Below, piece after piece: positions 3,679 through 41,445 of a stretch of 64,000 bases of DNA. A program made the position numbers and the translations under genes. The DNA lies in NCBI GenBank assembly GCA_033675265.1, contig JAUJYZ010000773.1:608914-672913 (forward strand), in the 5' to 3' direction. Position 1 is the first letter of the stretch. Every line of letters starts with the position of its first letter. The notes beneath the pieces were generated by a model. That model made no database searches. It was given only the letters and a program-made list of their open reading frames with translations, and was not told where the DNA came from. Origin of the DNA: Actinostola sp. cb2023. Its lineage: Eukaryota > Cnidaria > Anthozoa > Actiniaria > Actinostolidae.

Positions 3679-3775
3679 CTATAGACTCGGCCCGGCCTTA
3701 GGCCTGGGCCCGAGTAATAATATTCACAGGCTCAATGTTCATGCTCTAGCCAGCGGTCAACTTTATAAATTCAAA

Positions 3776-12262: not shown

Positions 12263-15200
12263 ATGAGGTTCTTTATACGAAACAAGAAAAAGTACGACCC
12301 TTCTGTTGCATTCAAAGATGCAATAATAGCCGTAGATGTGGATCACACGCTAGAGATCGGCAAAATAAAAGAGGTATTTTTGCATCCAGGAATGGCAGGG
12401 TGAAGTACGTTGCTGTGTGGTCGGTGGTCTTTGGTAATGTTTTGTCTGTTGTATTTATCCACAGGAGGCAAGAAAGATCGCCAAGGGATGCAAGATAACA
12501 GCGTTATATGTTGCACGGCTGGATGGATCTTTTATTGACCTCGCTGATGACAGGTATTGTAACCTTTTGGCTGTGTTGGCTGGACATGCTTGTTTGTTTT
12601 GATCAACTTCAAGGTTGCTTTTTGGTCTGTTTGCAATGTTATTATTGTTTGAATAGCACATTAATTTGCTTGAACCTGCCTCCAGATTTATAGAGAGTTC
12701 TGTTATTTTAGCAATTTGTAAATATATTCATTTATCATATGGCCCGTATTTCTAGACTCGCACACTAAAGTTGTGATAGGGTCCTGATGTGATGGCCCTG
12801 CAGCAAGGGGACACGTCGGGCACAAATGACCCCAAAATCGGCAATGTTGAACGTGCCTCTTTTACATTAACCTTCGTATTTTCAACAATTTCACATCAAT
12901 TGGGATGAAAGTTTCGGAGGTTGCTTACTACATGTAGTATTTTATTTTGGCATACTAAAAGTTACCACTGACGTAATTGTGACGTCATCACGAATTGTTA
13001 CATTTCTCGGGAAAATCGAGATCACTTTAAAACGTTCTGAAAAGTAGATATTCTGAAAGAGAATAACATTCAATAAAAGTTAGTGCATTTTTTATCTCGA
13101 TGCGATAATTTATGGCTGAGTTATAAAGGATATTCATCTTATGATGACGTCATAGAAATGACGTCACCTAAATAGCATTAAAGCTTTACGGAGCAATGAA
13201 AATCGATGAAATGACGTTCTTGTGGTCATTTATTGTTAATAATAGATGTTATTAATGGACGAAGCTGAAAATTTCGGTCCACGATCTTTATTAGGGATAT
13301 TTCAAAATATTGGTGACGTCATTATGACGTAACAGGAATCTGTCAATATTTTTGATTAATATTTCTAATACTTATCTTCAAAAAATCAAAAATCTAAAAA
13401 GATACGATTTGAGGGGCGTCTTAGTTCTTTCAATATCCAAAGTGTGAAGACAAAAGATTTTCAAACAAAAAAGTTGAATGAAGAAGTTTATTTACGAATG
13501 GCTCTATATAATTCATTTGGGAAATTATGAAGACCTATGAACAATATTTATAAAAATAACTTCTTCATTCAACTTTTTTGTTTGAAAATCTTTTGTCTTC
13601 ACACTTTGGATATTGAAAGAACTAAGACGCCCCTCAAATCGTATCTTTTTAGATTTTTGATTTTTTGAAGATAAGTATTAGAAATATTAATCAAAAATAT
13701 TGACAGATTCCTGTACGTCATAATGACGTCACTAATATTTTAAAATATCCCTAATAAAGATCATCGACCGAAATTTTCAGCTTCGTCCAATACAAACATA
13801 TATTATTAACAATAAATGATCACGAGAACGTCATTTCGTCGATTTTCAATGCTCCGTAAAGCTTTAATGCTATTTAGGTGACGTCATTTCTATGACGTCA
13901 TCATAAAATGAATATCCTTTATAACTCAGCCATAAATTACCGCATCACGATAAAAATTGCACCAAATTTTATTGAATGTTATTCTCTTTCGAAATATCTA
14001 CTTTTCAGAAGGTTTTAAAGTGATCTCGATTTTCCCGAGAAATGTAACAATTCGTGATGACGTCACAATTAAGTCAGTGGTAACTTTTAGCATGCCAAAA
14101 TAAAACAATACATGTAGTAAACAATCTCCGAAACTTTCATCCTAATTGATGTGAAATTGTTGAAAATACGACGGTTAATGTAAAAGAGGCACGTTCAACA
14201 TTGCCGATTTTGGGGTCATTTGTGCCCGACGTGGGAGGGCACCCTGCAGCAGCAAGCTGAACCGCTGACATGTATTATGTACTTATTGACTGAGTTAGGT
14301 TGGGCCGGACAGGAAAATAAATGGCTCGAGGTCATGGCCATACAGACCGAGCGCAGAGAAATCCATGCTGAATGACCAAGAGCCAAATATTTTCCCAGCA
14401 GCCGAACCTAACTCAGTCAATAAGCATTTTTTTAAATTATTATATGACCCACCAAACCCTCGCCTTCCAATGGTTTTATCAAGAGTGCGCGAGTCGGGAA
14501 ATATGTCATATGATAATATTCATTCATACATTCCACCTGCATACATCTGCATTCATCATTCCTTCCATTCATTTATTCATTCATGCATCCCACATGCATC
14601 CATCTGCATTCATCATTTATTCATTCATGCATCCCACCTGCATACATCTGCATTCATCATTCATTTATTCATTCATGCATCCCACCTGCATACATCTGCA
14701 TTTATCATTCATTTATTAATTCATGCATCCCACCTGCATACATCTGCATTCATCATTCATTTATTCATTCATGCATCCCACCTGCATACATCTGCATTCA
14801 TCATTCATTTATTCATTCATGCATCCCACCTGCGTACATCTGTATTCATCATTCCTCCCATTCATTTATTCATTCATGCATCCCACCTGCATACATCATT
14901 CCTCCCATTCATTTATTCATTCATGCATCCCACCTGCATACATCATTCCTCCCATTCGTTTATCCATTCATGCATTCCACCTGCATACATCTGCACACAT
15001 CATTCCTCCCATTCATTCATTCATTCATTCTTTCAATCATTCTGTTTCATCCATTCAGAACTATCAACTTCTATAATTTGCAAGATGGTATGATATTGGA
15101 GACAACATCCAATCCATTTTGGGTAACAACGTTGTACTCCAATATGAGACGACGAGAACAGGAAGCCGCTACAAACCCAGAGGATGCAAAATTGTGCTTT

Positions 15201-18200
15201 CAAGCTCAAAAGTCTTACATCCATCGCTGCATGGCTATTGGATTGCTTTTAAATGGAACAGGGCAAGTAACAAAGTACATTGTATGTGGATTAGGAAACA
15301 TGGGGGTCTTAGGTTTCTATGCCTTGAATTTCTATCCTAATGGCCCATGGCCTACACCAAGTCTGGCCTTGCAGCTCAGCTGAAAGTGATCAGCAGCAGA
15401 GGTCATGGGTGAGAATCCCATTGAGGATCAATGGTCGGAAGGATTTTATGGATTTTTTATTGGAACAATTTTTTCATTCTAAAGTAATAAAAAAAATTGG
15501 TTATATAGCACTATATATATATAGCATTATATAGGAAATTTCGAATTCTTATTCCAATTTTTTCTTTTGAAAGTTGTTGTGGCATAGGCCGCTGTCCAAC
15601 CCTCTGTTATATGTATTAGCCTCACAGAGAATAAAGCAGGAACAGGATAGCACTTTAACTTTCCTCTATATTTCTACACTGTACAATAGGTACATTATCA
15701 ATAAATGGTGATTTCGTTGACACCTACTTCTCGTGAACTGATCATTTTTTCTTATAGAGAGACTGAAAAGCAGCCACCAACGTTCCATGATCTGGATGAC
15801 TTATACGAGTACTGCTTAACCCAAGGCAAGAAGCCTGCATACATGTCACAGTTCACCCTTGATGAGCTACAGGAGATGTTGGATACTTTTAAGCAGCAAT
15901 TACAGCACAGAACTGATCCTATTGGTGCATTTATTTACGTACAAGCTGTAAAACTTAGTTACTTGCAAGGTACACTTATGTACTGCTATACAATACATGT
16001 ACATACATGTACACGTCAAATAGAAGGAAATAAAATTATGGGACACAGAAAAGGTTCCATATTTCAAGTACTGGGGCCGGTTGTTCGAAAGGCTATTAGT
16101 GCTAATCCTGGATTAAAGCATGAATAGTTTTCTTCTTCTTCTTCTTTTATTATTATTATTTTAATATTATTACTTAAGATTTAATATTGGATTAGCACTA
16201 ACCGCCTTACGAACAACTGGGCCCTGGTGGTAATAGCATTTTCCATTGTATAAACAACCTTGGCAATAAATATTTATTATGATTATTTTAGTTTATACAT
16301 GTACTAGATATGTTTTTACATCATCACCAGTACTTGAACCCAAAACCTGCATTTTTTTTTGTTTCATTAGAAAATACTCCCATTGATGCCGATGACCCAT
16401 TCAGGTCCCACTTCCAACAGAATCCCAGACAAGAAAGGTAAGTCAATACATGTTAGAGTGAGCCAATCTTCTCCATGTAGCAGCATAGCAGCAGACAGTC
16501 ATGTATGTGTGTGTTGGGGGGGGGGGGGGGGGGGGTGTGGGTGTGGGGGGGGGGGGTGGGGGGACTTGTCATGTATATCGGGGGAGGGGGTGGTAAGGGA
16601 TTGACACTTGTCATGTGTATTGGAGGTGGGGTGGGTGGTAAGGGATTGGGGGAGGGGCTGGTGGTAAGGGATTGGGGGAGGGGCTGGTGGTAAGGGATTG
16701 GGGAGGGGCTGGTGGTAAGGGATTGACACTTGTCATGTGTATTGGAGGTGGGGTGGGTGGTAAGGGATTGGGGGAGGGGCTGGTGGTAAGGGATTGGGGG
16801 AGGGGCTGGTGGTAAGGGATTGGGGAGGGGCTGGTGGTAAGGGATTGACAATTGTCATGTGTATTGGAGGTGGGGTGGGTGGTAAGGGATTGGGGGAGGG
16901 GCTGGTGGTAAGGGATTGGGGGAGGGGCTGGTGGTAAGGAATTGGGGGAGGGGCTGGTGGTAAGGGATTGACACTTGTCATGTGTATTGGAGGTGGGGTG
17001 GGTGGTAAGGGATTGACACTTGTCATGTGTATTGGGGGTGGGGTGGGTGGTAAGGGATTGACACTTGTCATGTGTATTGGAGGTGGGGTGGGTGGTAAGG
17101 GATTGACACTTGTCATGTGTATTGGAGGTGGGGTGGGTGGTAAGGGATTGGGGGAGGGGCTGGTGGTGGGATTGGGGGGAGGGGTGGGTGGTAAGGGATT
17201 GGGGGAGGGGCTGGTGGTAAGGGATTGGGGGAGGGGCTGGTGGTAAGGGATTGGGGGGGGCTGGTGGTAAGGGATTGACACTTGTCATGTGTATTGGAGG
17301 TGGGGTGGGTGGTAAGGGATTGGGGGAGGGGCTGGTGGTAAGGGATTGGGGGAGGGGCTGGTGGTAAGGGATTGGGGGGGGGGCTGGTGGTAAGGGATTG
17401 ACACTTGTCATGTGTATTGGAGGTGGGGTGGGTGGTAAGGGATTGGGGGAGGGGCTGGTTGTAAGGGATTGGGGGAGGGGCTGGTGGTAAGGAATTGGGG
17501 GAGGGGCTGGTGGTAAGGGATTGACACTTGTCATGTGTATTGGGGTGGGGTGGGTGGTAAGGGATTGACACTTGTCATGTGTATTGGGGGTGGGGTGGGT
17601 GGTAAGGGATTTTTGACACTTGCCATGTGTATTGGAGGTGGGGTGGGTGGTAAGGGATTGACACTTGTCATGTGTATTGGAGGTGGGGTGGGTGGTAAGG
17701 GATTGACACTTGTCATGTGTATTGGAGGTGGGGAGGGGGTGGTAAGGGATTGACACTTGTCATGTGTATTGGAGGTGGGGTGGGTGGTAAGGGATTGACA
17801 CTTGTCATGTGTATTGGGGGTGGGGGTGGGTGGTAAGGGATTGACACTTGTCATGTGTATTGGAGGTGGGGTGGGTGGTAAGGGATTGACACTTGTCATG
17901 TATATTGGGGGTGGGGTGGGTGGTAAGGGATTGACACTTGTCATGTATATTGGGGGTGGGGTGGGTGGTAAGGGATTGACACTTGTCATGTGTATTGGAG
18001 GTGGGGTGGGTGGTAAGGGATTGACACTTGTCATGTATATTGGGGGTGGGGTGGGTGGTAAGTTGACACTTGTCATGTATATTGGGGGTGGGGTGGGTGG
18101 TAAGGGATTGACACTTGTCATATATATTGGGGGTGGGGTGGGTGGTAAGGGATTGACACTTGTCATGTATATTGGGGGTGGGGTGGGTGGTAAGGGATTG

Positions 18201-21200
18201 ACACTTGTCATGTATAATAATAATAATAATACTTTATTATTTTTATAGTGCCTTATCCAAAGCTCTAAGGCGCTTAACAATAAAAGAATCATTATTTACT
18301 AATTTAAAAAAAACTTACTCTATATGAATATTATACTGGTATGTATATTGGGGGGAGGGGGTGTAAAGTGATCTTAAAACACTTGTCATGTATATTGAGG
18401 GGGAGGGGTGGTAGGGGATTGACACTTGGTTGGATAAATGTGTTATATTTTCTTGTAACTTGGTAGAGGTGTTGTAGCTGCAAGACAAAATGGAGGACAA
18501 AACAGGAATGTTGCAGGTAATATGTGTGCATAACTTCAATGTACATAATGATTGATTACTACATGTATGTGACCACCTGAGAGGTGCGACTTGTAGCTTT
18601 GTAATTAGACTCTAGACATCACAGAAGCCATAGTTGGTGTCTTACTTGTTTATGATTGACATACGTCAAGTCTAAAAGCAAACTTACCAGTTACAACTTT
18701 CATCTCGAGTGGCCACAGTAACGCAAACAATGGTAAGATGGACAGTTCAAGAATAACAATCCAGTGCACATCAATTCTGTGTCCCGTGGAAAATCTGAGC
18801 AACAGCATCCAAAACTGATTAAAGGTTGTTCTGTGTGCAGCAGGAGCAGGTCGAGTTGGTCGAAGGAGAGCCAATAACAATCGCATGTGTGATGATTGTG
18901 AGGTTGCCATGGCAATGTCTTATTGTAACGACTGTACCTTGTGTCTGTGTGACAACTGCTGGATGACTTTTCACAGAGGAGCAACAAGAAGGAATCACCA
19001 AATGAAAGGTAAAGATCTTCTTGGCAGGCTTAGGATTGTAAAGGTCAGGAGGACACACTAAGCGACAAGTCACAGCAACAGGTCTCTGCGACAAACCACT
19101 TCGTGTGCATTGCTTCTGAAACATGTCACTTTTACTCATTTTGTCACTGCGATCTTACGCACAAATTCAAACCAGATTGAATTCATGCGACTTGTCGTGG
19201 GGACAAAATTCTGTCGCGGGGACAAGAATTTTACATAAAACCTGCGTGTCACACGAAGGGAATTGTCGCTGCGACCTGTTGCCTAGTGTGTCCCGACCTT
19301 AAGTGTCTACAATCATCTTGTAAACAATCATTTCTTTACAGATGTTTCAGAGGCCCCTCGGCAAACGTCTTATGTACCCCAGGTAAGATAAATATATGTC
19401 AGAAAAATTGTGTTGATTTGAATTGTGTATAACAGGTCACAAGTTTGATGGAATTAAATTATTTTGTACATATTTCATTGTAAAGTGCGTTCAGGCATTT
19501 AGAGAGTGCGCTATATAAATAAACCATATTATAATGATTATTAAATTTATGGTTAGCTTACAGCCATTTGCGATGCTTGTTTGCATTTCACAGTTAGTTG
19601 TGAATGTCATTCAGTTTTGCAAAGTTCAACAAGGATTCAGAAAATGTTCTTGTTCCTCATATAACTAGGCTTCCATTGGAATTTTTGAGTTTGGTGATGA
19701 AACAAAATTAACCAGTGATTGTATGGATCTTTGAGAATATTTCAGTTTTGTTTTATGTAAGTGACAAATGCAAATTATTAGGCGATTTCTGTACTAATGT
19801 CCCCTTTTAATTGAGATTTCAATGCGAATTCACACTTGAAACTGACAACATGGTCAGCAATCTCAAATACGATCCTCAACTACAGAATTCCCACATAAAG
19901 CACAAGATACGTATATCTGATGGGTACCCCAGGTATAGATAAAGAAACATACACATGTACAAAAAATTAGGGTCACAGATCTTTGGCACGACATTTACCG
20001 ATCAGAAACGCGAAAGCTTGAATAGGAACTGCTTTATTTCCCTCAACTTCCAACGAAGCCGAATGTGTTCAGCTCCCGTAAGCGACCGCGAAAAGCATTG
20101 TGGTTATTGAGAATTGCATGATGGTTTTGAATTGCATGATGGTTATTGAGAATTGCATGATGGTTATTGAGAATTGCATGATGGTTGAGAATTGCATGAT
20201 GGTGATTTGAAACTGCATGCCGGGTAAAAAACGAGATTTTTTCTCCCTACATGAATGGATTAGAATTGCTTCCTTGTCGCTTCAGGCTCGGCTGCGTCAG
20301 CAATAAGCACATTATATAAACTATTTATTTATCTATTGATGTCATTTCAAGGGCTTACGAGAGGTTCCAACTATAGTGACTTTGACTTGGAACTGAACAT
20401 TTTGGTATTTTGGAAATCTTAACCTTCATCCTCATATCATCAATCTGCGACCACCACCATTATCGCTCACTTGGGAGAGGTGGTCGCTTACGAGAGTGGT
20501 CGCAACTGGAGGTTCAACTATATTTCATTATAAAGTGCATTAGGCATAATCAATATGGACCACCATATTATGCTACCTTGACCAATGACTATAATCACCA
20601 CAGATTATCATAATTTTTTATGGTTCATTAGGCATAATCAATACAGGACCACCACCATTATCAATCACCTTGACCTTGTTGCATTAATCACCACAGGTCA
20701 TATCATTGTGAATCATCATATTCATCATAATCAATTTGACCACCACCATTATCACTCAACAACTTGACTATAATCACCAAGAAAATGTCATCTTGTTCTC
20801 ATCATCATAATCAAAGCACATTTCACTACCTTGAAACTTACTATAATTATTTAATCATTATCATGATCATCATTAATCAAGGACCACCACCATTATCACA
20901 GGACCAAGACTATAATCACCACAGACTAATAATCTCTCTAACAGCTGATGAAATTAAGTTGAGAGGGCAGCCATTATCACTCACCTTGACCACTGACACA
21001 GACTATCATGAAGATCATCATATCAACATCATCATAATCAATACTGTGTATTCATACTTGACTATGTCATCATCATCATCATTATCAGTATCCTTAATAC
21101 TACGACCACCACCATTATCACTCATCATCATCATCATAATCACCACCACATCACTATCATCATCATCATCATCAGTATCATCATCATCAATACTGCGACC

Positions 21201-30200: not shown

Positions 30201-33200
30201 TCAAGTTGTTGATGATGACAAAGGTGCTAATAATCAGCCAAACCAAAAGGTTGCAGAAAGGTGAGGACTTTAGACAGTGGTTGTGATGTGTAGTGATGGA
30301 GATAGCATTGATATTCCTGATGTAAAAATAAAATAAATATAAATTACTTTTTTTACGTGTCAATCGATCTAGCATTACTGCTAATATGGGGACACGACTC
30401 TCACACTCACTCACTCACTCACTCACTCACTCACTCACTCACTCACTCACTCACTCACTCACTCACTCACTCACATAACAATAATTATAATTATAATAAA
30501 AATAGTAGTAGTAGTAATAATAATAATAATAGAAATAACATCACTTGTTTGGTGCTCAGGATGGAGGCTGATGTAATGTTTGCCAGTGATTCACAAGAGG
30601 AAGAAATCATGTTACAACAGGTCTGGTAAAGATTAGTAAAGATCTGCAATTCAAATTAAGAAAATGATGCAATAATGGAATCGTAATATGTTAATATTAC
30701 GATTTAAAAAATATTAAATATTAAAAATATTAAATAGTTTCCCAAAGGGCAGTTGCCATCAGTCTGTTGTGTGGAAAGTTAGGATTCAGAGCAACACCCA
30801 GGGTCTTAGAATGTTGAGGAGAAGGTGCTGCCTTGTTTTCCCAACTGCACATGGTTAGACATTATTTTGTGTGATTCGACATTATTTTGTGTGATTCAGA
30901 TCATGACATGTCAGTAGTCCCGTCTCTCCATAATACACTACTAACCTGAATTAGAGCAAGAACCTCTGACAGCATAACAAACCCTGACCATGACTGCTCT
31001 CAGCATCGCAATTGCCCTGACTGCGTGTGTACATGTATGTGCGTGTGTCTGTTGGTGTGTGTTGGTGTATGTTCATGAATTCCTTTCAATAATTAAATAT
31101 TAAATCCTCACTCTCACATCCCTCTCGTAGGCTCTACAGCAAAGTCTTGCAGACGACACTCAGCCACTTCAGCAGGGTGCAACCGTAATTATGGCACATC
31201 ACGAAAATAGACCAAACACTTCAACAACACTACATGCAGCAACACCAGAGGAAACCAACAGCACAACCAACAATGGCGACCAAAACAATGATGCTGGTAC
31301 AAATGCCTCACACGCAAGCAATGCTGGTACTGGCAGAAATGCCTCACACGCAAGCAATGCTGGTACTGACAGAAATGCCTCACACTCAAGCAATGCTGGT
31401 ACTGACAGAAATGCCTCACACTCAAGCAATGCTGGTACTGACAGAAATGCCTCACACGCAAGCAATGATGGTACTGACAGAAATGCCTCACACTCAAGCA
31501 ATGCTGGTACTGGCAGAAATGCCTCACACGCAAGCAATGCTGGTACTGACAGAAATGCCTCACACTCAAGCAATGCTGGTACTGACAGAAATGCCTCACA
31601 CTCAAGCAATGCTGGTACTGACAGAAATGCCTCACACTCAAGCAATGCTGGTACTGGCAGAAATGCCTCACACTCAAGCAATGCTGGTACTGGCAGAAAT
31701 GCCTCACACGCAAGCAATGCTGGTACTGGTACAAATGCCTCACACACAAGCAATGCTGGTACTGACAGAAATGCCTCACACTCAAGCAATGCTGGTACTG
31801 ACAGAAATGCCTCACACTCAAGCAATGCTGGTACTGACAGAAATGCCTCACACGCAAGCAATGCTGGTACTGGCAGAAATGCCTCACACGCAAGCAATGC
31901 TGGTACTGACAGAAATGCCTCACACTCAAGCAATGCTGGTACTGACAGAAATGCCTCACACGCAAGCAATGCTGGTACTGGCAGAAATGCCTCACACGCA
32001 AGCAATGCTGGTACTGGCAGAAATGCCTCACACGCAAGCAATGCTGGTACTGGTACAAATGCCTCACATGCAAGCAATGCTGGTACTGGCAGAAATGCCT
32101 CACACGCAAGCAATGCTGGTACTGGCAGAAATGCCTCACACGCAAGCAATGCTGGTACTGGCAGAAATGCCTCACATGCAAGCAATGCTGGTACTGACAG
32201 AAATGCCTCACATGCAAGCAATGCTGGTACTGGCAGAAATGCCTCACATGCAAGCAATGCTGGTACTGGCAGAAATGCCTCACACTCAAGCAATGCTGGT
32301 ACTGGCAGAAATGCCTCACATGCAAGCAATGCTGGTACTGACAGAAATGCCTCACACTCAAGCAATGCTGGTACTGACAGAAATGCCTCACACTCAAGCA
32401 ATGCTGGTACTGACAGAAATGCCTCACACTCAAGCAATGCTGGTACTGACAGAAATGCCTCACACTCAAGCAATGCTGGTACTGACAGAAATGCCTCACA
32501 CGCAAGCAATGATGGTACTGGTACAAATGCCTCACACGCAAGCAATGCTGGTACTGACAGAAATGCCTCACACGCAAGCAATGCTGGTACTGGCAGAAAT
32601 GCCTCACACGCAAGCAATGCTGGTACTGACAGAAATGCCTCACACTCAAGCAATGCTGGTACTGACAGAAATGCCTCACACGCAAGCAATGCTGGTACTG
32701 ACAGAAATGCCTCACACTCAAGCAATGCTGGTACTGACAGAAATGCCTCACACGCAAGCAATGATGGTACTGGTACAAATGCCTCACACGCAAGCAATGC
32801 TGGTACTGACAGAAATGCCTCACACGCAAGCAATGCTGGTACTGGTACAAATGCCTCACACTCAAGCAATGCTGGTACTGACAGAAATGCCTCACACGCA
32901 AGCAATGCTGGTACTGGTACAAATGCCTCACACTCAAGCAATGCTGGTACTGGTACAAATGCCTCACACACAAGCAATGCTGTTGGCATCAAACAGGAAT
33001 GCATAGAGGAGGAGGACGATGACTTACAAAATATTATACAATTTAAACTTTATGATGAAATACAAAGCAACCTCCAGGAGGACTGCACTAGAAGTGAAAC
33101 ATCTACAAACCTTGAAGCTGATGATGACGAATTAAGGAAAGCTTTAGAGCAAAGTAGACTGCAATATCAAATCGAGCAAAGGACAGTAGAAGTGGACAGC

Positions 33201-36200
33201 AGTATGTCTGGTGCACAAGGACTTGAAATAAAAGAAAAGCTTGATTCAAAAGGTGATTCTGAGGATGAATCACTGCAAAAAGCTTTGCAAGAAAGTGTCA
33301 ATTCACAGTGTGAAATGGAGCAAAGGACAACAAAAACGGCAAGTAATTTGCATTGTGCTCGAGTTGAAGGCAGTTCCAGCAGAGGCGACAAGCATCAATC
33401 AAAGAGTCATTCAGATGACGAGCTGCAAGAGGTTTTACAGCAGAGTAAAATGCAATATGAAATGGGGAAAAATCAGGACAAATTGTCAAGTGACAGTTAC
33501 GACGAGGATGAAGCATTGAGAAAAGCACTTGAACTCAGTAAACAAGGAATGGAAAGTGGAAAAAAAGAGAAAAGGAAAGAAAAGGAATAGTGGGAACAAA
33601 AATGGGATGTCATCTTATCAGAATAATGAACACTCAGGGCAAAAGACAGAGTTTGAAGAGTTTATTATTGACAGTCAAGAAGACGACAACAATCCTGAGG
33701 TCTTTTTCCATGATTTTGAGGTCCCAGATTTTGCCAATGAAAAGCCAGATTCAAGAGATGATTTGTCAAATAATGGTAACAATACTTCCACTCCTAAGAA
33801 CTCTAATTCCATTATTCCTCCAATGCCATTATCTCCAAGACAAAGTAATGGTGGACACCAAGTAGTTAATACTTTGAGTGAGCAAACTTCAGTTGAATTG
33901 TCAAATACGTCCTTGAACAATAGCGATGATAAAGAGCAGGGTGATGATAGAAGCCAAGAATGCTCCAACACATTGACAGGTACATCAAACGTTGATACTT
34001 GTGCCATTTTGGTGGACAGCCAAGACTATGATGATGATGTCATCACAATACACCGTGGTAAAAGTAACTCAGAACCAGAACAAAACTTCTCCCTGTTTTC
34101 AAGGACATGATTCTATCATGATTGACAGCCAAGATGACATCGAGGATCTCGACAGTGGCACTGATTATATGATAGCAAGACAGCTTCACGAAGAGTTAAA
34201 CAACGAAGTAAACAATAACAGAAGTAACAATGTTGCCACAATTTCAACACCAACATTTGAGTCTAATACCAGAGTAAATAGTCAGATTGATTCGTATAGA
34301 GATGAGCAGCAGAAACGATTTAGAGAGTTAAAAACTGGTAAAAGTCCATCCACTAGGAATCCAGGCCTGGCTTTTAGACAAAAAGCTGAGGCTATCGCAA
34401 GGGGAAAGGAATCGTTATTGTCAGTTGGAAGACATCTAGGAAGTGATGCAGGCAGTCCAAGAAGGAGACCAGACAAAAGAGGTTGTGATGGTAAAGTCAA
34501 GAACACTTCAAGCATCTACAAGACTTCCAGGTATTGAAGATAATGGAGGTAGTCACAGTACATGGGAGATGATAGGAGGCCATAATCTTGATGGTGAAGT
34601 TGATAGTTGAAGAGATGATGATGATATTGATGGTGATGATGATAATAGCGATGATGATGATAGCGATGGTGATTATTGATGATGGTGATGATGATAGCAT
34701 TGATGGTGATGATGATAGTTGAAGAGATGATGATAATAGCGATGGTGATATGATTAAATTTTGTAGCTTTGATCTTGTTCACCAACTAGAAGCGCAAGGC
34801 CTTATTTGGGGCAGATGCTTGGTGTATGATTACAATCATACTATCATACTATTCTTTTTGCATTGACAAAATATTCCCTGAAACTTGTGCTCGTCATCAT
34901 TCTCGTCTACCAAGCTTAAGCCCCTTATTGTTGACAGTGGTGGTGACAGTAATGACTGATGTTATGATAATAATCTTAACCTGTTTCTTGTACAATGTTC
35001 TATTCCAGTACAATTACCAAAGATGAAACCAGACAAAATATGACAGCAAGAAAGAGCTGTAATTTCTAGTCCAAGAAGTCGCCCAGAATCTAGTCTTGGT
35101 TACAGTTCATCTTCAAGTTCGACCAGTAATTCAAGATACAGCAGCTCACTAACATTTCCTCAGTCACCTTCTCCATCAATCAATAACACAAGAACAAGCA
35201 GCACAACAGAGTCAGGAGGGTCATTCACTTTCCCAGCAAGTTCACCACAGCCAAGTCATTCTAGGTAAGTATGACCGCTATCATCTGTATCAGGGTTAAT
35301 GCCCAAACAAAGTCTGGTGCATTTGACTGGCTATGCCAGGCATTCTGTCAGCTATTTTCAATGCTGGAGCATCTTGCTGCTTTAATGCTAGTTGAGCCAC
35401 CTACTCTCCTGCTACAGCCTGCTGCTCAAAGACCCAGTGCATTTGACTGGCTACGCCAGGCATTCTGTCAGCTAGTTTGAATGCTGGAGCATCTTGCTGC
35501 TTTAATGCTAGTTGAGCCACCTACTCTCCTGCTACAGCCTGCTGCTCAAAGACCCAGTGCATTGACTGACTACGCCAGGCATTCTGTCAGCTAGTTTGAA
35601 TGCTGGAGCATCTTGCTGCTTTAATGCTAGTTGAGCCACCTACTCTCCTGCTACAGCCTGCTGCTCAAAGACCCAGTGCCAACCAGGAGGCTTTATCTTG
35701 CATAGTTATTAGTTACATTGTGGATTCATCACAAACGTTTTCTCTCCTCTTGTAAAATGTGTTTCAGATCAGCAAGTGATGATGCAGTGCATGGATTTGT
35801 GTTTCCTAGCAGCGTGAGTACCATATTTTACTTTATTGTTACTCATGGTGATATTGATGATCATTTCAATAATGACAGTAGGGGTGTAAGACACAGGTAG
35901 TGATGTTGATAGTGCTTGTGGTGGTAGTTGTAAGTATGACAGTAGCAACAGTGGTGTTGGTGGTGGTGATTATGACGACGATGATGCTCACAAGATAGCA
36001 ACAATCATCTCCATTATGTAAAATCAGATTACTTTTTACATTTTATTGGGATTTGTTTTTGCTACTCAGTCTTGTTTGTTGTCTATTTAAAGCAATGTTT
36101 TTGTACTTTCCATATAGTCTTCAAGTCCAAGTCCATCAATGAATAACAACCATGCAGACGAGCACACAAGAACCAGCAAAGGCACAAGTGCACCTAAATG

Positions 36201-37429
36201 TTCCGATTGTGGCGAAGTAGTAGGTCATCGCAAAGGAACAAAGAAATGTCCTTATTATTACACAGAAGAAGCACAGAGGAAAAGAGAGGCAAGTAAATGG
36301 GAGACAGTTAATCAGAAATAAACTAACAAACTTTACTAACATGAAGCACCTGCTCCAGGGATTGGTATCACATTAGTTAGCAATGGATGCTCTCACCACT
36401 CAATCATCCTTGATGTGACTGACAATTCCAAGACATTTATCTTGGATGTTTGAACATGACATCCAATGGTGCAATGGTCTGTAACCATTGTCATCATCAT
36501 CATTATTGTCATCGTCATCATTATAGGTGTCATCAGCAAGATTGTCATCATCATTATAGGTGTCATCATCATCATTATTGTCATCATCATCATTATAGAT
36601 GTCATCAGCAGGATTGTCATCATCATCATTGTGTCATCATCATCATTATTGTCATCATCATCATTATAGATGTCATCAGCAAGATTGTCATCATCATCAT
36701 TATAGGTGTCATCAGCAGGATTGTCATCATCATCATTATAGGTGTCATTAGCAACATTGTCATCATCATTATAGGTGTCATCATCATCATTATTGTCATC
36801 ATCATTATAGGTGTCATCAGCAAGATTGTCATCATCATTATAGGTGTCATCAGCAGGATTGTCATCATCATCATTATAGGTGTCATCAGCAGGATTGACA
36901 TCATCATCATTATAGGTGTCATCAGCAACATTGTCATCATCATCATTATAGGTGTCATCAGCAACATTGTCATCATCATTACTAACATTGTTGTCTCCGA
37001 TTCCTCATTATCATCATCAATATATTTAGCATCATTTCTTGTCATCATCGTCACCATCATTTAATTTTTACATTATGATTATGATGGAAAATAATGTTAA
37101 TGTACTTTTCAAGGAACAAACGAGAAAGAGAAAAGAAAAACGAGATGAAGATGACAGACAACAACAGATCAAAGTGGATGCTTTGGTAAGCCCTTGAAAC
37201 TTCTGTTTCTCCAAATTTGATGCAGAATTAAGGCCCAGTTACATGCAGGGGACAACTCACAATGAAATGAAAATATTATTTTCATTTTTAGGTTGCAGAA
37301 CATGCTGAAATGTCAGAGCAAGGAGAGCAACTGAGGATTCAAATAGAACGATTTAATCGGCGAAACAATAATCTACCAAGAATGGTAGAGGACGCTGTGA
37401 AGGGTTTGAAGAAAAGGCGTAGAAAATAG
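12263..37429 (+). CDS. Multi-domain ERCC4 (XPF/MUS81-type) nuclease with UBL, B-box, UIM and SIM-like motifs
   Basis: Not a family I recognise as a whole. Proposed exons: 12263-12373, 12465-12553, 15059-15266, 15762-15969, 16371-16437, 18467-18516, 18841-19008, 19342-19382, 21790-21869, 22117-22233, 23612-23722, 24596-24688, 24757-24849, 26496-26631, 27819-27862, 27904-28003, 28875-28941, 30065-30136, 30200-30260, 30560-30620, 31131-34530, 35009-35264, 35768-35813, 36118-36288, 37114-37185, 37292-37429 (about 2,020 codons). Domains in order: beta-grasp-like N-terminus, helical region, B-box, ERCC4 nuclease with ERKTWDD, low-complexity 12-residue repeats, five UIMs, SIM-like motifs, zinc knuckle, coiled coil and basic end KKRRRK. 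Likely a nuclear, structure-specific DNA nuclease recruited through ubiquitin/SUMO; this is inferred. Phases close at most junctions. Three junctions (exons 11/12, 13/14, 15/16) and three points in exons 21-22 are off by one base, so exons are missing, the assembly has indels, or the gene is decaying. First in-frame ATG chosen as start. Confidence 0.75.
12812..14231. mobile_element. Large foldback with ~675-base arms and CRE-like sites
   Basis: Arms 12812-13489 and 13557-14231 are near-perfect inverted copies around a loop of about 67 bases. They begin ACGTCGGGCACAAATGACCCC. Each arm holds several GACGTCA/TGACGTCA octamers, for example near 12982, 13143 and 13157, and mirrored near 13890 and 14056. 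Sits in intron 2 of the nuclease gene. No transposase; target duplication not established. Confidence 0.85.
14282..14426. repeat. Palindromic element, family P (copy 3)
   Basis: Arms CTTATTGACTGAGTTAGGTT and its complement, with an internal AGCCAAATATTTTCCC that also occurs in the copy at 7495. Less symmetric than copy 1, so older. Confidence 0.75.
14517..15048. repeat. CATT-rich minisatellite before exon 3
   Basis: Repeats of about 48 bases containing CATCCCACCTGCATACATC plus CATTCATTTATT runs. It ends only about 10 bases before the exon 3 acceptor, so it supplies the polypyrimidine region. The long frames across it are artefacts. Confidence 0.9.
15762..16437 (+). other. Nuclease-gene exons 4-5: acidic helical region
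   Basis: Exon 4 encodes [20 protein letters not shown]... and a predicted helical stretch [20 protein letters not shown] ending at a GTACAC donor. Exon 5 (16371-16437) gives [19 protein letters not shown] before GTAAGT. No domain recognised. The exon 4 acceptor is chosen from three overlapping AGs (AGAGAG) to keep phase. Confidence 0.65.
16515..18215. repeat. G-rich minisatellite, potential G-quadruplex array
   Basis: About 1.7 kb of two interleaved units on the + strand: GGTAAGGGATTGGGGGAGGGGCT-type and a 42-45 base unit GATTGACACTTGTCATGTGTATTGGAGG-type. Nearly every unit holds three or four runs of three or more G. It lies in intron 5 of the nuclease gene, so the transcript also carries the G-rich strand. 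Proline-rich frames on the minus strand are artefacts. Confidence 0.92.
18218..18290 (-). mobile_element. SINE/LINE 3' tail
   Basis: TA-rich (ATAATA)n followed by ATAGTGCCTTATCC and AAGGCGCTTAACA, the reverse complement of a common invertebrate retroposon tail that ends in (TTATTA)n. Confidence 0.5.
18841..19008 (+). other. Nuclease-gene exon 7: B-box zinc finger
   Basis: The exon encodes CDDC, eight residues, CNDC, then CLCDNC, and later [10 protein letters not shown]. This spacing (C-x2-C-x8-C-x2-C-x4-C-x2-C-x4-H-x7-H) fits a B-box. B-boxes bind zinc and usually mediate protein contacts in TRIM-type ligases; here one precedes a nuclease. It is preceded by an Arg/Gly-rich linker split over exons 6 and 7. 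Flanking splice phases (1 and 1) close exactly. Confidence 0.85.
19480..19530 (+). mobile_element. Retroposon tail fragment
   Basis: GTAAAGTGCGTTCAGGCATTT followed closely by GTGCGCTATATAAATAAA resembles the 3' end of invertebrate SINEs. Short relic. Confidence 0.5.
19531..21784. repeat. Intron 8: CAT/ACC-rich tandem repeats
   Basis: No exon clearly seen. ATTGCATGATGGTTATTGAG repeats lie at 20098-20215. From about 20440 there are diverged units of 100-140 bases containing ACCACCACCATTATCACTC and GACTATAATCACCACAGACT, with three near-identical copies at about 21196, 21315 and 21414. A small exon could hide before 19800. Confidence 0.75.
22570..23390. repeat. 25-base minisatellite
   Basis: About 32 copies of ATCAACTATCAATCATCATC + ATTGC. 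All three forward frames read through it, giving spurious His/Ser/Ile-rich proteins. It lies in intron 10 of the nuclease gene. Confidence 0.92.
23390..23545 (+). pseudogene. Decayed duplicate of nuclease exon 11
   Basis: CTGATGTACCTATA, CAGGCCAG, ACAACAGACAAGTAT and CTACTAGTTG recur in the same order as at 23559-23630. After an insertion of minisatellite-like DNA, GCATGA, AGGCC and GTGAGAAAACTT also match exon 11. It is a broken copy of the exon with its acceptor. Confidence 0.7.
23705..24289. repeat. 45-base minisatellite carrying a splice donor
   Basis: Thirteen units start at 23705 and then exactly every 45 bases to 24245. The first overlaps the end of exon 11. Every unit contains AGGAACTGGTA(A/G)GTAG, so each has a usable 5' splice site. 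The ATG-CCT-GAC-CAG-GAA-CTG phase is open across units and its donor is in phase with exon 12. Confidence 0.92.
24331..24473. repeat. Small TIR element with GTTGGACACC repeats
   Basis: CAGTCAACTCTCTCC and AGAGAGAGTTGACTG face each other. Inside are four copies of TCTAAGTTGGACACCCA. Probably a Tc1/mariner-type MITE. Confidence 0.6.
25140..25280 (+). mobile_element. SINE 3' end
   Basis: TTGTAAAGCGCATTGAGA, AATGCGCTATATAAGAACC and then (TTA)n: the standard tail of tRNA-type SINEs in marine invertebrates. Confidence 0.7.
25555..25731. repeat. Palindromic MITE in intron 13
   Basis: GAGTTCCAGACTT...GGTACGC and GCGTACCGGAAGTCTGGAACTC are inverted, with ATTATTACAAAGGAAAAG and its complement inside. 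Confidence 0.75.
25765..26455. repeat. GATGATACTATT minisatellite
   Basis: Units of about 50-70 bases: GATGATACTATTGGTTGTCA, AGG(T/G)TATGTTG, TAGATGATCACAG. Ends about 40 bases before the exon 14 acceptor. Confidence 0.9.
26640..27720. other. Intron 14: TIR relic and retroposon tails
   Basis: 27067-27263 is bounded by GGGGTATCGAA and TTCGACACCCC and holds diverged GAGACTCTGAG units. Two poly-(TTA) retroposon tails end near 27355 and 27712, the second after ATGAAATAAAGTTTTCA. No exon seen. Confidence 0.55.
28076..28552. mobile_element. Foldback with ~230-base arms
   Basis: The ends TATCGAATTCATGAATAATT and AATTATTCATGAATTCGATA are inverted, and the arms match throughout (for example ATCGTTGGATTCGATAAGT). 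Related, more diverged sequence continues to about 28770, suggesting a second degraded copy. Confidence 0.8.
29250..29388. repeat. Palindromic element, family P-like (copy 4)
   Basis: The arms CTTATTGACTGGGACCTCGG and its complement enclose TGTTTTGTGGTCCC and a GC-rich centre CGGCTCCGCC. It shares the CTTATTGACTG end with the copy at 14282. Confidence 0.75.
29580..30020. repeat. (CATC)n/(CATT)n array
   Basis: Tetranucleotide array in intron 17, ending about 45 bases before exon 18. The Ser/Ile/His/Pro frames are artefacts. Confidence 0.93.
30399..30475. repeat. (ACTC)n microsatellite
   Basis: Pure ACTC tetranucleotide run of about 75 bases in intron 19, followed by an A/T-rich (AAT)n stretch. 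Confidence 0.95.
30560..31190 (+). other. UIM 1, split by an intron
   Basis: Exon 20 ends [10 protein letters not shown] and exon 21 starts ALQQSLADD, so the spliced product carries [16 protein letters not shown]. This fits the ubiquitin-interacting motif (acidic run, then A-x-x-x-S). The phase-0 splice confirms the join. Confidence 0.8.
31302..32993 (+). repeat. Coding 36-base minisatellite, 47 units
   Basis: Inside exon 21. Units start at 31302 and every 36 bases to 32958 without a single length change. Each codes N-A-S-H-(A/S/T)-S-N-(A/D)-G-T-(G/D)-(R/T). Variation is mostly at three codons. The segment should be disordered and hydrophilic, and links the nuclease part to the UIM part. Long open frames on the other strand and in frame +2 are by-products of the 36-base period. 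Confidence 0.93.
33119..34196 (+). other. UIM 2-5, SIM-like motifs and a MIU-like helix
   Basis: UIMs: [15 protein letters not shown] (33119), [15 protein letters not shown] (33260), [15 protein letters not shown] (33411), [15 protein letters not shown] (33501). All keep the central Ala or Val and the Ser. Then three hydrophobic-plus-acidic motifs: [11 protein letters not shown] (33655), [13 protein letters not shown] (34000), [12 protein letters not shown] (34110), each fitting a SUMO-interacting motif and sharing [15 protein letters not shown] (34162) resembles an inverted UIM (MIU). Two one-base frame changes lie at the A7 run 33560-33566 and the T4 run 34096-34099; removing one base at each gives a continuous frame. 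Confidence 0.75.
34590..34760. repeat. GATGAT/GGTGAT array
   Basis: Imperfect GAT trinucleotide repeats in intron 21, just after the exon 21 donor (34531). Confidence 0.85.
35009..35264 (+). other. Nuclease-gene exon 22: Ser-rich segment
   Basis: Encodes [11 protein letters not shown]... then [18 protein letters not shown] and [16 protein letters not shown]. The frame changes by one base near the AAA at 35051; dropping one A joins both parts. Probably a disordered, phosphorylatable linker. Confidence 0.6.
35300..35680. repeat. 119-base tandem repeat, 3 copies
   Basis: Three nearly identical units containing GGCATTCTGTCAGCTA and GTTGAGCCACCTACTCTCC. In intron 22. The low divergence suggests a recent duplication. 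Confidence 0.9.
36118..36288 (+). other. Exon 24: zinc knuckle, ends at a GC donor
   Basis: Encodes [17 protein letters not shown], a C-x2-C-x5-H-x6-C knuckle, followed by the basic helix EEAQRKRE. The next exon is in phase only if the donor is GAG|GCAAGT at 36289, a near-perfect consensus for a GC-AG intron. Without splicing, the frame stops at 36321. Confidence 0.7.
36475..37005. repeat. CATCATCATTATAGGTGTCATC array
   Basis: Units of about 30-40 bases with ATTATAGGTGTCATCAGCA; intron 24. Confidence 0.9.
37114..37429 (+). other. Exons 25-26: coiled coil and nuclear-localisation tail
   Basis: [18 protein letters not shown], then [14 protein letters not shown] and finally [10 protein letters not shown] before TAG at 37427. 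The basic clusters fit nuclear targeting; the middle suits a short coiled coil. Splice phase 0, GT-AG. Confidence 0.8.
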
Positions 37430-38085
37430 TATGTAAAAATGATAAATGAGCTTGTGTCACCTGTCACAGCGATACAGAGAAGAGCGTCCCGGCTAATCTG
37501 TGGTCCGGATAAAGAGTATCCTGAAAGACTGTCAATGTTAAAGTGGGACTCCTTAGAGCTAAGGCGTAAATACCTAAGCCTAGTTCAAATGTATAAAATC
37601 ATATTTGGACTCTGTGCTATTGATAGGTCTAGATATTTTGATATTTTAGGTGTTATACGCACTAGAAGTCACAATAATTATAAAATCAGACCTATGGGGG
37701 CCCGTACTAATTATTTCAAATATTCGTTTTTTCATCGTTATATTAATGACTGGAACTCCTTATCCAGTACAGTTATAGATTCGCCCAGCATTTCCTCTTT
37801 TAAGGCAGCGTTAATTAAGCATTTGCGTTAGTTTTCACTTCTATTTTTGCATATTTACATTTTATACATTTTATATCTACATTTTGTTGTTGTTTTTTCT
37901 CTGTTGATGTTTTTGTCGTTACTTACTTATATGTTAGGAGGGTAGCCTTTGAATGGGAATTTAGTTTCCCCCTGCCACCATCCCGTCAACATCGTTAGTT
38001 TTAGTTCTTTGTTCATTGTGTATTATTGTATCTATTTTATTTTATGTTATGTTATATCAGGTTGTATAGTTGACAAAGAGTTATT
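37430..38085 (+). mobile_element. LINE 3' fragment (5'-truncated)
   Basis: The frame 37439-37831 encodes the region C-terminal to a non-LTR reverse transcriptase: RRASRLICG, LRRKYLSLVQMYKI, then FHRYINDWNSL and SSFKAALIKHLR. This pattern is typical of CR1/L2/Rex-type LINEs. No reverse-transcriptase core is present. It starts immediately after the nuclease stop codon and probably supplies its 3' UTR. Confidence 0.8.
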
Positions 38086-40947: not shown

Positions 40948-41445
40948 TTTGGATTTATTCCAAGGCCATCATGCACCGAACTCGACTAGAATAGACGGCG
41001 AATGTTGAAATAAACTTCGAGACTGCGATCGAGTCGCCGAAGTGTGAATTCCCTATGGAATACAGGCTGGTGGGATTTTCCCTCTGAAGAAATCCACTCC
41101 ATTCGCATGGAATATATCCATATAATATTACATTATCCACTTTTCTTCGATCGAAGCGATGATGGTTAGCTGTTGAGAAAAAATATTCGATCTGTGGTGG
41201 ACTAGGAAAGCGAGCCTTTCGTTACCAGTCCATATATAAACAAAGGGAGCCAACAGGATTCAAATTGAGTTCAGCGAGCCTATCGATCATCGGAGCCACC
41301 TGGATCTGACTTTTCCTATTTTAACAGTTTTAAAATTGATTGCTCTGAATATTTCTTTGATAATCACTTTGAATGCTGCCGCCACACGGAACTCTGTCCT
41401 TCTGTTCCCATAGGCCTATACAAAGATGGCAGGCACCTCGCTGTT
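40948..41445 (-). promoter_or_regulatory. GPCR 5' flank
   Basis: Single-copy DNA between the receptor start codon and MITE copy 3. It contains TATATATGG on the minus strand around 41231-41239. No other gene seen. Confidence 0.4.

Follow-up and report, generated by a model that had tools for sequence, protein, structure and literature searches.

Eukaryotic nucleases of the XPF/MUS81 type are heterodimers that rely on their partner and on (HhH)2 domains to reach the substrate. A locus in the sea anemone Actinostola sp. cb2023 raises the question of whether a nuclease of this type could instead carry its targeting within its own chain. The locus lies on contig JAUJYZ010000773.1, in a stretch of 64,000 nucleotides (the window), where the gene spans 12263-37429 on the plus strand. 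The encoded domains follow the order putative ubiquitin-like domain (UBL), helical region, B-box, MUS81-type winged helix and MUS81-type ERCC4 domain (with the motif ERKTWDD), and 3' of ERCC4 are found five UIMs, SIM-like motifs, a MIU-like helix, a CCHC knuckle and a basic end. Judged from its sequence, the locus is probably a member of an undescribed animal family, 'UBL-B-box-MUS81', that would be guided by ubiquitin and SUMO marks to the branched DNA it cuts.

One gene and its relatives

Whether these domains belong to one gene can be answered using four related proteins: P0001 from amphioxus (deposited as 'MUS81, partial'), the coral-type P0002 (1489 aa), P0003 from Actinia and P0004 from Stylophora. 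The first search for relatives gave an E value of 8e-36, and a profile search in which 7996 candidates were scored yielded P0002-P0004 at 2.7e-211, 1.9e-161 and 1.1e-158, values obtained with a profile that itself contains the window protein and P0001. P0001 was absent from the listing of that search. P0002 probably derives from a spliced transcript, since its source contigs are at most 5003 bases long. When compared with the window by tblastn, the four relatives were found to be colinear with it from 12263 to 37417, with exons 16, 19, 21 and 22 unmatched. P0002 spans the whole gene, P0004 (without a start) covers the helical region to the C-terminus and P0001 the UBL to the nuclease, and the window's order is kept. 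The Actinia protein stops before the nuclease, where the window turns disordered, and exons 1-7 align to it without frame breaks. Because most exons have counterparts in the four relatives, arranged as in the window, 12263-37429 is taken to be one gene. The initial annotation had likewise proposed a single gene, and neither a split into separate genes nor a loss of ERKxxxD turned up; the domain content and order that it proposed were borne out by the anemone, coral-type and amphioxus sequences, the full order recurring in P0002, with P0004, amphioxus and Actinia agreeing where they reach. Viral contigs gave 12 pattern matches and 0 relatives, and the UIM exon alone as query returned 310 candidates, none of them significant, and no match in the PDB. 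The features of the gene are as follows.

12263..12373 (+): exon 1, start codon and ubiquitin-like domain; 78% identity to P0003 1-37, phase to exon 2 in agreement
12465..12553 (+): exon 2, ubiquitin-like domain; 73.5% identity to P0003 37-70
15059..15262 (+): exon 3, UBL end and conserved SNPFW helical part, GC donor; P0003 88%, P0001 47% (E 8.8e-14)
15758..15969 (+): exon 4, conserved helical region without assigned fold; P0003 65%, P0001 39%
16371..16437 (+): exon 5, linker; matches P0003 only, 57%
18467..18516 (+): exon 6, basic linker; P0003 at E 0.17, phase in agreement
18844..19008 (+): exon 7, B-box zinc finger; Pfam zf-B_box 1e-8, four relatives 47-75%
19342..19382 (+): exon 8, linker 5' of the winged helix; P0003 at E 0.015
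19564..19590 (+): only six residues (PFAMLV...), possibly left over from helix 1 of the winged helix, in a disturbed frame; equalled by 34/200 shuffles
20925..20985 (+): winged-helix helix 2, exon ends provisional; P0002 352-367, 75%, E 0.087, 0/200 shuffles
21785..21869 (+): exon 9, winged helix; P0002 62%, P0004 65%, P0001 46%
22117..22233 (+): exon 10, winged helix; P0002 57%, P0004 60%, P0001 44%
23390..23557 (+): exon 11 partial copy 1, catalytic GD-aspartate strand (here ND), 5' half unlike the exon; 8/200 shuffles as good
23612..23722 (+): exon 11 partial copy 2, first nuclease strand and helix, out of phase with exon 12; P0002 447-473, 67%, E 1.4e-6
23704..24272 (+): 45-bp array of 12.6 copies, whose unit includes DMPDQEL, where the exon ends, and a donor, GTAAGT/GTAGGT; identical DMPDQEL in P0004
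24596..24688 (+): exon 12, nuclease core; P0002 and P0004 71%, amphioxus 62.5%
24757..24849 (+): exon 13, nuclease strand 4; P0001 56%
26496..26631 (+): LMTYADF..., start of the post-nuclease region, boundaries by eye; P0004 475-522, 35%, E 0.12, in the expected place
27956..28003 (+): post-nuclease piece, boundaries by eye; 0/200 shuffles against the P0002 piece
28875..28941 (+): post-nuclease piece; 1/200 shuffles against the P0002 piece
29483..29565 (+): post-nuclease piece, start by eye; P0002/P0004 50-57%
30055..30136 (+): end of the possible second ERCC4-like half; P0002/P0004 46-53%
30200..30260 (+): exon 16, linker; phase in agreement, no match in the relatives
30560..30620 (+): exon 17, first half of UIM1; P0002/P0004 65%, E 0.11-0.12
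31131..33560 (+): exon 18, remainder of UIM1, 36-bp array and UIM2-5, by UIM shuffles; 3' end at 33537, at ~33560 or a frameshift
31301..32982 (+): in-frame 36-bp array inside exon 18, a stop-free linker of ~47 units NASH[AST]SN[AD]GT[GD][RT], by repeat analysis
33638..34057 (+): exon 19, two SIM-like motifs, by motif shuffles; no tblastn match to the relatives
34104..34530 (+): exon 20, SIM-like and MIU-like; P0002 1205-1295, 38%, E 1.2e-12, like motifs in P0002 and P0004
35070..35264 (+): exon 21, Ser-rich; phase in agreement, no match in the relatives
35768..35813 (+): exon 22; phase in agreement, no match in the relatives
36118..36288 (+): exon 23, CCHC knuckle, GC donor; P0002 40%, E 8e-7, zf-CCHC_6 6.3e-4
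37114..37185 (+): exon 24, charged helix; P0002/P0004 41-44%
37292..37429 (+): exon 25, stop codon; P0004 1465-1508, 30%, joined E 1.9e-4

The exons had been described as splice-compatible throughout, which does not hold: the phases disagree at junctions 8/9 and 11/12, exon 11 consists of two partial copies and the frame shifts at ~33.56-33.64 kb. Agreement of phase elsewhere is not independent evidence, because the splice sites were picked with the frame in view. The 3' end of exon 18 is left open, as an end at 33537 would cut UIM5, and for exon 15 the acceptor at 30055 was preferred to one lying upstream at 30023. A combined codon test of 20 exons, without exon 14b and with exon 15 in its since-dropped form, gave a Fisher p of 5e-8; it counts as weak evidence, since the relatives show part of 14b to be real, and the view of 14b as non-coding (codon score -0.005, 332/1000) was given up. 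The earlier reading of this DNA had passed over the winged helix and the MIU-like helix, and also over the GD-aspartate exon with its damage and what may be a second ERCC4-like half.

The N-terminal half

The Pfam ubiquitin model did not match the window or P0001, and the values for P0002 (0.054) and P0003 (0.011) did not pass the cut-off. A ubiquitin fold at residues 1-85 is supported by a UBL profile made from the window, P0001, P0002 and P0003, which was found to match ubiquitin or RUB1 in 21 of 23 PDB matches (E up to 10), with an E value of 0.03 over 2-82 for the single-copy chain 6byh, and against a UBL model of 10 sequences 2 of 2000 shuffles scored better than the window. The strand and helix order E-E-H-E-E-E was seen in one low-confidence structure model and not in the other, both models being poor (mean pLDDT 36.7). 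The B-box of the window is recognized by Pfam at 1e-8 (35.6 bits, cut-off 24.1), and its Cys/His pattern is present in 4/4 relatives, the Pfam scores of which lie below the cut-off. The MUS81-like_WH model matched P0002 (0.0039) and P0004 (0.0014) below the cut-off but in the correct place, and no winged-helix match was found by Pfam in P0001. As comparison of the window's winged helix with human MUS81 alone was not significant (446/5000 shuffles), this domain is settled only by the relatives, exons 9-10 being 57-65% identical to P0002/P0004.

The nuclease domain and its damaged exon

Five exon composites of the window matched the Pfam ERCC4 model at 50.1-53.8 bits, well above the cut-off of 24 (E 2.5e-14 to 3.5e-13), as did P0001 (3e-16), P0002 (7.7e-26) and P0004 (2.6e-25). 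The ERK codons of ERKTWDD begin at 24614, and both LPVGD and ERKTWDD are found in the three relatives that reach the nuclease (P0001, P0002 and P0004). All four PDB matches to the nuclease were to MUS81, with no other family represented, and the kinship with MUS81 noted earlier is supported by the anemone, coral-type and amphioxus relatives. A Pfam check of the spliced protein, as had been proposed, placed ERCC4 and zf-B_box above the cut-off and passed one UIM.

The GD strand is found in the window only in a partial exon 11 copy, where it reads KLPND (ND for GD). The exon for the last nuclease helix, FLVNRTGSWMKTVEWLC, was not found in the window, the best candidate being equalled by 48/200 shuffles. 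Human MUS81 and XPF alone gave no significant match to exon 11 (2156 and 2453 of 5000 shuffles; 473 and 501 of 2000), and its identity was settled by the coral-type and amphioxus sequences. With a GD exon that looks damaged in this copy, the protein of this anemone might lack activity; a fault of the assembly at this place is the other possibility.

A second MUS81-type family

The same genome encodes an ordinary MUS81 on contig C846, with the winged helix, GDFAW, ERKRMDD and an HhH part on exons in order. The window nuclease is 69% identical to that of P0002 and 42% to that of the C846 MUS81, whilst human MUS81 is 64% identical to the C846 MUS81 and 38% to the window protein. Given this separate MUS81 with its HhH part, the window gene is best placed in a second, MUS81-related family. 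In the own-genome search the sole locus reported was C846, and even the ERCC4 exon of the window was missed, which leaves room for further family members. By Pfam, no HhH or EME1-MUS81 C-terminal family was found in the whole of P0002 and P0004 or in the scanned window pieces (exon 19 left out), and no N-terminal HhH family in P0001, P0002 and P0003, P0004 being without a start. The family occurs in cnidarians and amphioxus and is therefore probably old. No paper describing a UBL-B-box-MUS81 family was found in the open-licence literature, in agreement with the earlier remark that no described protein has this order of domains; database entries stand under 'uncharacterized' and 'MUS81, partial'.

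The C-terminal tail

Shuffles of the UIMs and SIMs were made with the 552-aa tail of exons 17-20, the array left out. The window has four canonical UIM cores (acidic patch-LxxAxxxS) and one with A->V, a number reached by 0/20000 shuffles, and one UIM lies above the Pfam cut-off (4.6e-5). Three SIM-like motifs of the form [VILM]2-DSQ-[DE] are found in the tail (0/20000 shuffles), the pattern having been written after the motifs were seen; a looser SIM pattern is unremarkable, with three matches where shuffles average 0.68 and reach up to 6. P0002 and P0004 each have 5 + 1 UIMs, one AIL.DSQEL motif and one MIU-like helix, the last of which is matched by no Pfam model. The CCHC knuckle of the window matches zf-CCHC_6 at 6.3e-4 (20 bits, below the 22-bit cut-off), and those of P0002 (26.3 bits) and P0004 (23.3 bits) lie above it; a regular expression written for the knuckle missed it in all four relatives. 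The earlier suggestion that targeting may be built in is in keeping with the lack of HhH domains, and also with a UIM/SIM/MIU-like tail that recurs within the family.

A possible second ERCC4-like half

The region 3' of the nuclease is conserved and takes the place of the (HhH)2 of MUS81. It matched ERCC4 profile positions 80-140 in P0002 (E 7.8e-4; 0.0014 for a longer piece) and P0004 (0.074), and not in the window. Its comparison with MUS81 was equalled by 34 and 78 of 1000 shuffles, and a nuclease profile of the family and human MUS81 gave P 0.0036 at a probability of only 9%. An XPF-family chain was found in 0/5 PDB matches, and kinship with EME1 was rejected as not significant, the comparison with EME1 being equalled by 105 and 374 of 1000 shuffles. 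A tentative and rather doubtful reading is that of a single-chain MUS81-EME1-like enzyme, in which an active nuclease and a degenerate ERCC4 half would replace EME1 and both (HhH)2 domains, fused to a UBL and to a ubiquitin/SUMO reader (UIM x5, MIU and SQ-switched SIMs). Such an enzyme would be switched by chromatin marks alone, and it would have been present before the cnidarian/bilaterian split and perhaps lost in vertebrates.

Alternative explanations

The damage around exon 11 may lie in the assembly. That an intact gene was locally misassembled, or collapsed between haplotypes (heterozygous collapse), where tandem arrays lie is a serious possibility, if short of an even one: the intervals from which pieces are missing (19.4-21.8, 22.2-24.6 and 24.85-26.5 kb) contain tandem arrays and part of the missing exon is present as a fragment, but there are 0 N runs in the window, and neither the frame change at ~33.56 kb nor the remnant at 19564 has an array next to it. 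EME1, FANCM and ERCC1 retain a dead nuclease fold, and the sea-anemone gene might similarly have lost catalysis and act as a ubiquitin/SUMO-reading DNA-binding scaffold. The two incomplete tandem copies of exon 11, ND in place of GD, the missing last helix and the alignment of exons 1-7 to Actinia without frame breaks favour such a loss, which we nevertheless consider unlikely: exons 9, 10 and 12 still have open frames, with 57-71% identity to P0002/P0004, ERKTWDD is unchanged, and misassembly is a plausible cause of the damage, given the arrays close to these exons.

It is improbable that the nuclease is directed at viral or mobile DNA, as a defence, and not at repairing the genome of the cell, even though the initial annotation spoke of 'foreign DNA' and innate immunity commonly makes use of both the B-box and ubiquitin/SUMO readers; a role in the DNA-damage response is suggested by the relation to MUS81, by the winged helix and by the SQ within the SIM-like motifs. 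That the gene is the animal's MUS81 orthologue with an unusual gene model is suggested by the name of the amphioxus entry and by a nuclease that matches MUS81 only, yet it is scarcely credible beside an ordinary MUS81 on another contig, the closer resemblance of human MUS81 to that copy and P0002 and P0004 without any HhH family. It is very improbable, too, that two or three neighbouring genes (UBL/B-box, nuclease and UIM tail) were strung together by eye; an ATG at the second base of exon 17 and the out-of-phase junctions 8/9 and 11/12 would suit this, but the single protein P0002 spans all of them, and P0004 and P0001 cover large parts in the same order.

Proposed mechanism

As a member of the UBL-B-box-MUS81 family, the protein would cut branched DNA by the metal-dependent VD..E / GD / ERKxxxD chemistry of MUS81, with the DNA held by the winged helix and knuckle. 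The UIM/MIU/SIM tail may dock the nuclease on ubiquitin- and SUMO-marked chromatin, docking that is perhaps tuned by phosphorylation of Ser-Gln inside the SIMs, and the UBL and B-box could recruit or regulate ubiquitin machinery. With these proposed roles for the tail, UBL and B-box, recruitment would take place in cis, where MUS81 relies on partners.

Comparison with known systems

FAN1, SNM1A and SLX4 are repair nucleases or scaffolds steered by ubiquitin binding, which have UBZ zinc fingers and unrelated nuclease folds; none of this type is known to have UIM arrays together with an ERCC4 domain. RAP80 (UIMC1) is a scaffold without a nuclease. It resembles the window protein in having a SIM and tandem UIMs in one protein, with phosphorylation of the SIM, as described in PMC12751080, and differs from it in that the window protein has five UIMs, a MIU-like helix and a nuclease. 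The origin of UIMC1 is dated just before the vertebrates in PMC3969565.

For the XPF/MUS81 nucleases, the GDXnERKX3D chemistry and the role of (HhH)2 are set out in PMC6320978, and inactivation of MUS81 by D307A in PMC3973302. Archaeal XPF/Hef likewise has an ERCC4 nuclease without a separate EME1-type subunit, the archaeal form being homodimeric (PMC6320978), but these proteins keep (HhH)2, may carry a helicase or PCNA motif and are without ubiquitin readers. The possible degenerate ERCC4 half 3' of the nuclease recalls the pairing of EME1 with MUS81, although the window family is without (HhH)2 and the similarity of the second half to EME1 is not significant. With MUS81 itself the family shares a winged helix followed by ERCC4, and the motifs VD..E, GD (in the relatives), ERKxxDD, RF..Q and YLVE; it differs in that no HhH family was found in P0001-P0004, in having a UBL, B-box, UIMs, SIM- and MIU-like motifs and CCHC knuckle, and in coexisting with an ordinary MUS81. 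The family was found under no gene name of its own, and the public name 'MUS81, partial' of the amphioxus entry would need correction. In a second MUS81-type family without (HhH)2 and with a ubiquitin/SUMO-reading tail, structure-selective cutting could be under the direct control of chromatin marks.

Relatives and gene structure

It had been proposed in the initial annotation that a single plus-strand gene occupies window positions 12263-37429, and this proposal was borne out by four relatives. A 580-residue composite, reaching from the B-box to the UIMs, retrieved one protein among 6480 candidates, the ‘MUS81, partial’ of the amphioxus Branchiostoma lanceolatum (P0001; 531 aa, E 8e-36). A profile of P0001 and the window protein recovered at least three further relatives among the 7996 candidates scored (P0002, P0003 and P0004), with E-values that are favoured by the presence of the window protein in the profile. 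P0002 (1489 aa) is taken to be coral-type because it is 71% identical, over the aligned part, to the Stylophora pistillata protein P0004 (LOC111345675 isoform X3, 1508 aa); its source contigs measure at most 5003 bases, and it is therefore probably from a spliced transcript. The Actinia tenebrosa protein P0003 (LOC116304243, 325 aa) shares 73% identity with the window across 37% of the query. Translated comparison with P0001-P0004 (plus-strand matches, E up to 0.5) gave a colinear chain over window 12263-37417, some matches in the UIM and array region being repetitive; exons 16, 19, 21 and 22 had no match in this comparison. These colinear relatives argue against separate genes far better than do the splice phases, the sites of which were picked with the reading frame in view.

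Neither a protein joining an ERCC4 domain with UIMs, with a B-box or with both nor a Mus81-like paralog with such a domain architecture was found described in the open-licence literature searched, and the available part of PMC3969565 describes no such protein. The proposed family of ‘UBL-B-box-MUS81’ proteins (the window protein and P0001-P0004) is present in cnidarians and amphioxus, and is apparently undescribed so far.

A predicted nuclease separate from MUS81

The ERCC4 nuclease and the B-box that had been read from the sequence were both recovered from the window exons, the former at 2.5e-14 to 3.5e-13 in five composites and the latter at 1e-8, and the PDB sequences matched by the nuclease were MUS81 in four out of four and nothing else. 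A search of the animal's own genome found an ERCC4 exon on another contig, C846; the window's own ERCC4 exon went unreported, which shows that the sensitivity of this search is limited. Comparison of the 30 kb around this exon with human MUS81 found the motifs in order and on one strand:

G000:C846:208451-232586, minus strand: ordinary MUS81 gene, ~24 kb; in order, winged helix, VDFIET, GDFAW, ERKRMDD, YLVE, DGFFIKRT and an HhH part

The window nuclease is 69% identical to P0002 compared with 42% to the C846 MUS81, and the latter is 64% identical to human MUS81. A small tree of seven short sequences parts the window family from MUS81 (FastTree 0.94-0.95; IQ-TREE ultrafast bootstrap 80 and 92), with weak branches within the family (59-62). 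The window gene is almost certainly not MUS81 itself.

LPVGD and ERKTWDD are retained in P0001, P0002 and P0004. No HhH family was matched in P0002 or P0004, and a conserved region ending KG.MVRRTE..EE stands where (HhH)2 would be expected. This region matched the second half of ERCC4 in P0002 (7.8e-4) and P0004 (0.074) and not in the window; comparison with a profile of the nuclease of the family plus human MUS81 gave a probability of 9%, and kinship with EME1 was not significant. That the region might act in cis as an EME1-like partner is kept as the boldest reading, not as a finding. Two structure models were both poor and played no part in these readings.

N-terminal half and C-terminal tail

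An N-terminal profile (window, P0001, P0002 and P0003) found ubiquitin or RUB1 in 21 of 23 PDB sequences at E up to 10, the polyubiquitin scores being inflated through repetition; a single-copy chain was matched at nearly full length (E 0.03). Two of three relatives match the ubiquitin family weakly, with the register as expected (0.011 and 0.054; none in the third), and the start of the window protein alone, read as ubiquitin-like in the initial annotation, had no ubiquitin match in Pfam. On these alignments, the N-terminus of the family can be called ubiquitin-like with fair confidence. Behind it, exons 3-5 encode a helical region that is conserved (SNPFW...), and this is followed by the B-box, winged helix and ERCC4 domain. 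MUS81-like_WH was matched below the cut-off in P0002 (0.0039) and P0004 (0.0014), with no winged-helix family match in P0001; the YSL...G...A pattern agrees with L205, G209 and A213, residues of human MUS81 named in PMC3834828.

Intron 2 holds a near-perfect palindrome (window 12812-14233; arms of 520 nt, 94% complementary, and 162 nt, 99% complementary), a hairpin-forming element within the gene of a presumed branched-DNA nuclease.

Of the five UIMs claimed initially in the tail, four have a canonical core and the fifth is an A-to-V variant (0/20000 shuffles as good); P0002 and P0004 each carry 5+1. The claim of SIM-like motifs stood for three copies of [VILM]2-DSQ-[DE], a pattern set after the fact (0/20000 shuffles), and a looser pattern was unremarkable. 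The claimed zinc knuckle, a CCHC knuckle, fell slightly short in the window at 20 bits against a Pfam cut-off of 22, and is recovered above this cut-off in P0002 and P0004. The motif AIL[IL]DSQEL is found in the tails of P0002 and P0004, and FASDSQEE, directly ahead of UIM1, is conserved too; kinases of the ATM/ATR or CK2 type would be candidates for phosphorylating the DSQ sites. A further tail helix, D-[YF]-x-x-A-x-x-[LV]-x-x-E, is putatively MIU-like and is matched by no Pfam model. Between UIM1 and UIM2, about 47 in-frame 36-bp units (window 31301-32982) make a stop-free linker of 560 residues.

Disturbed nuclease exons

Exon 8 ends in phase 0 and exon 9 requires one preceding base, and exons 11 and 12 do not fit at their junction. 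Helix 2 of the winged helix lies at window 20932 (0/200 shuffles as good), six residues only of helix 1 at 19564 (34/200) and the GD strand, only within a partial exon copy and reading ND, at 23511 (8/200); FLVNRTGSWMKTVEWLC, expected from the relatives, was not found in the window (best 48/200). One exon region (exon 11) is present twice in tandem: the copy at 23390-23557 retains the GD end, and the copy at 23558-23723 retains the VDTEEP start. These copies adjoin a 45-bp array (23704-24272, 12.6 copies), each unit of which carries the exon end DMPDQEL (identical in Stylophora) and its splice donor. Such units could serve as alternative exon ends.

Either the local assembly is wrong at these exons or the anemone lineage is losing catalysis. 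Tandem arrays are present in all three intervals with missing pieces; a frame change at 33.56 kb has no adjoining array, and the window contains no N runs. The Actinia protein P0003 stops at APFAMLVAFHR, the same place where the window becomes disturbed, which hints that the disturbance may be common to both.

Other features of the window

2052-3295: second palindrome, arms 353 nt (99%) and 187 nt (100%), same 80-aa ORF on both strands
3602-4165, plus strand: DUF1358 protein (1e-14), presumably TMEM242-like
37430-37831, plus strand: ORF directly after the stop codon, by its motif putatively a non-LTR reverse transcriptase end
39826-40968, minus strand: rhodopsin-type GPCR, long open ORF (7tm_1, 4e-50)
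49401-50507, plus strand: HECT-like ubiquitin ligase ORF (1.7e-7)
51514-52272, minus strand: integrase core fragment (rva_4, 3.8e-15), probably mobile-element remains

Comparison with known systems

The GD aspartate of MUS81 is D307. According to PMC3973302, MUS81 is inactivated by D307A, and PMC6320978 assigns metal-dependent cutting by ERCC4 nucleases to GDXnERKX3D, and DNA binding and dimerisation to (HhH)2. In combination with known systems, the most likely mechanism is a MUS81-type cutter that would be kept at ubiquitin- and SUMO-marked damage through its own tail. RAP80 (UIMC1) combines a SIM and UIMs in one protein and appears to favour mixed SUMO-ubiquitin chains, with affinity rising on phosphorylation beside the SIM core (PMC12751080); its origin is dated shortly before vertebrates (PMC3969565). 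The tail of the window family likewise has UIMs, together with SIM-like motifs.
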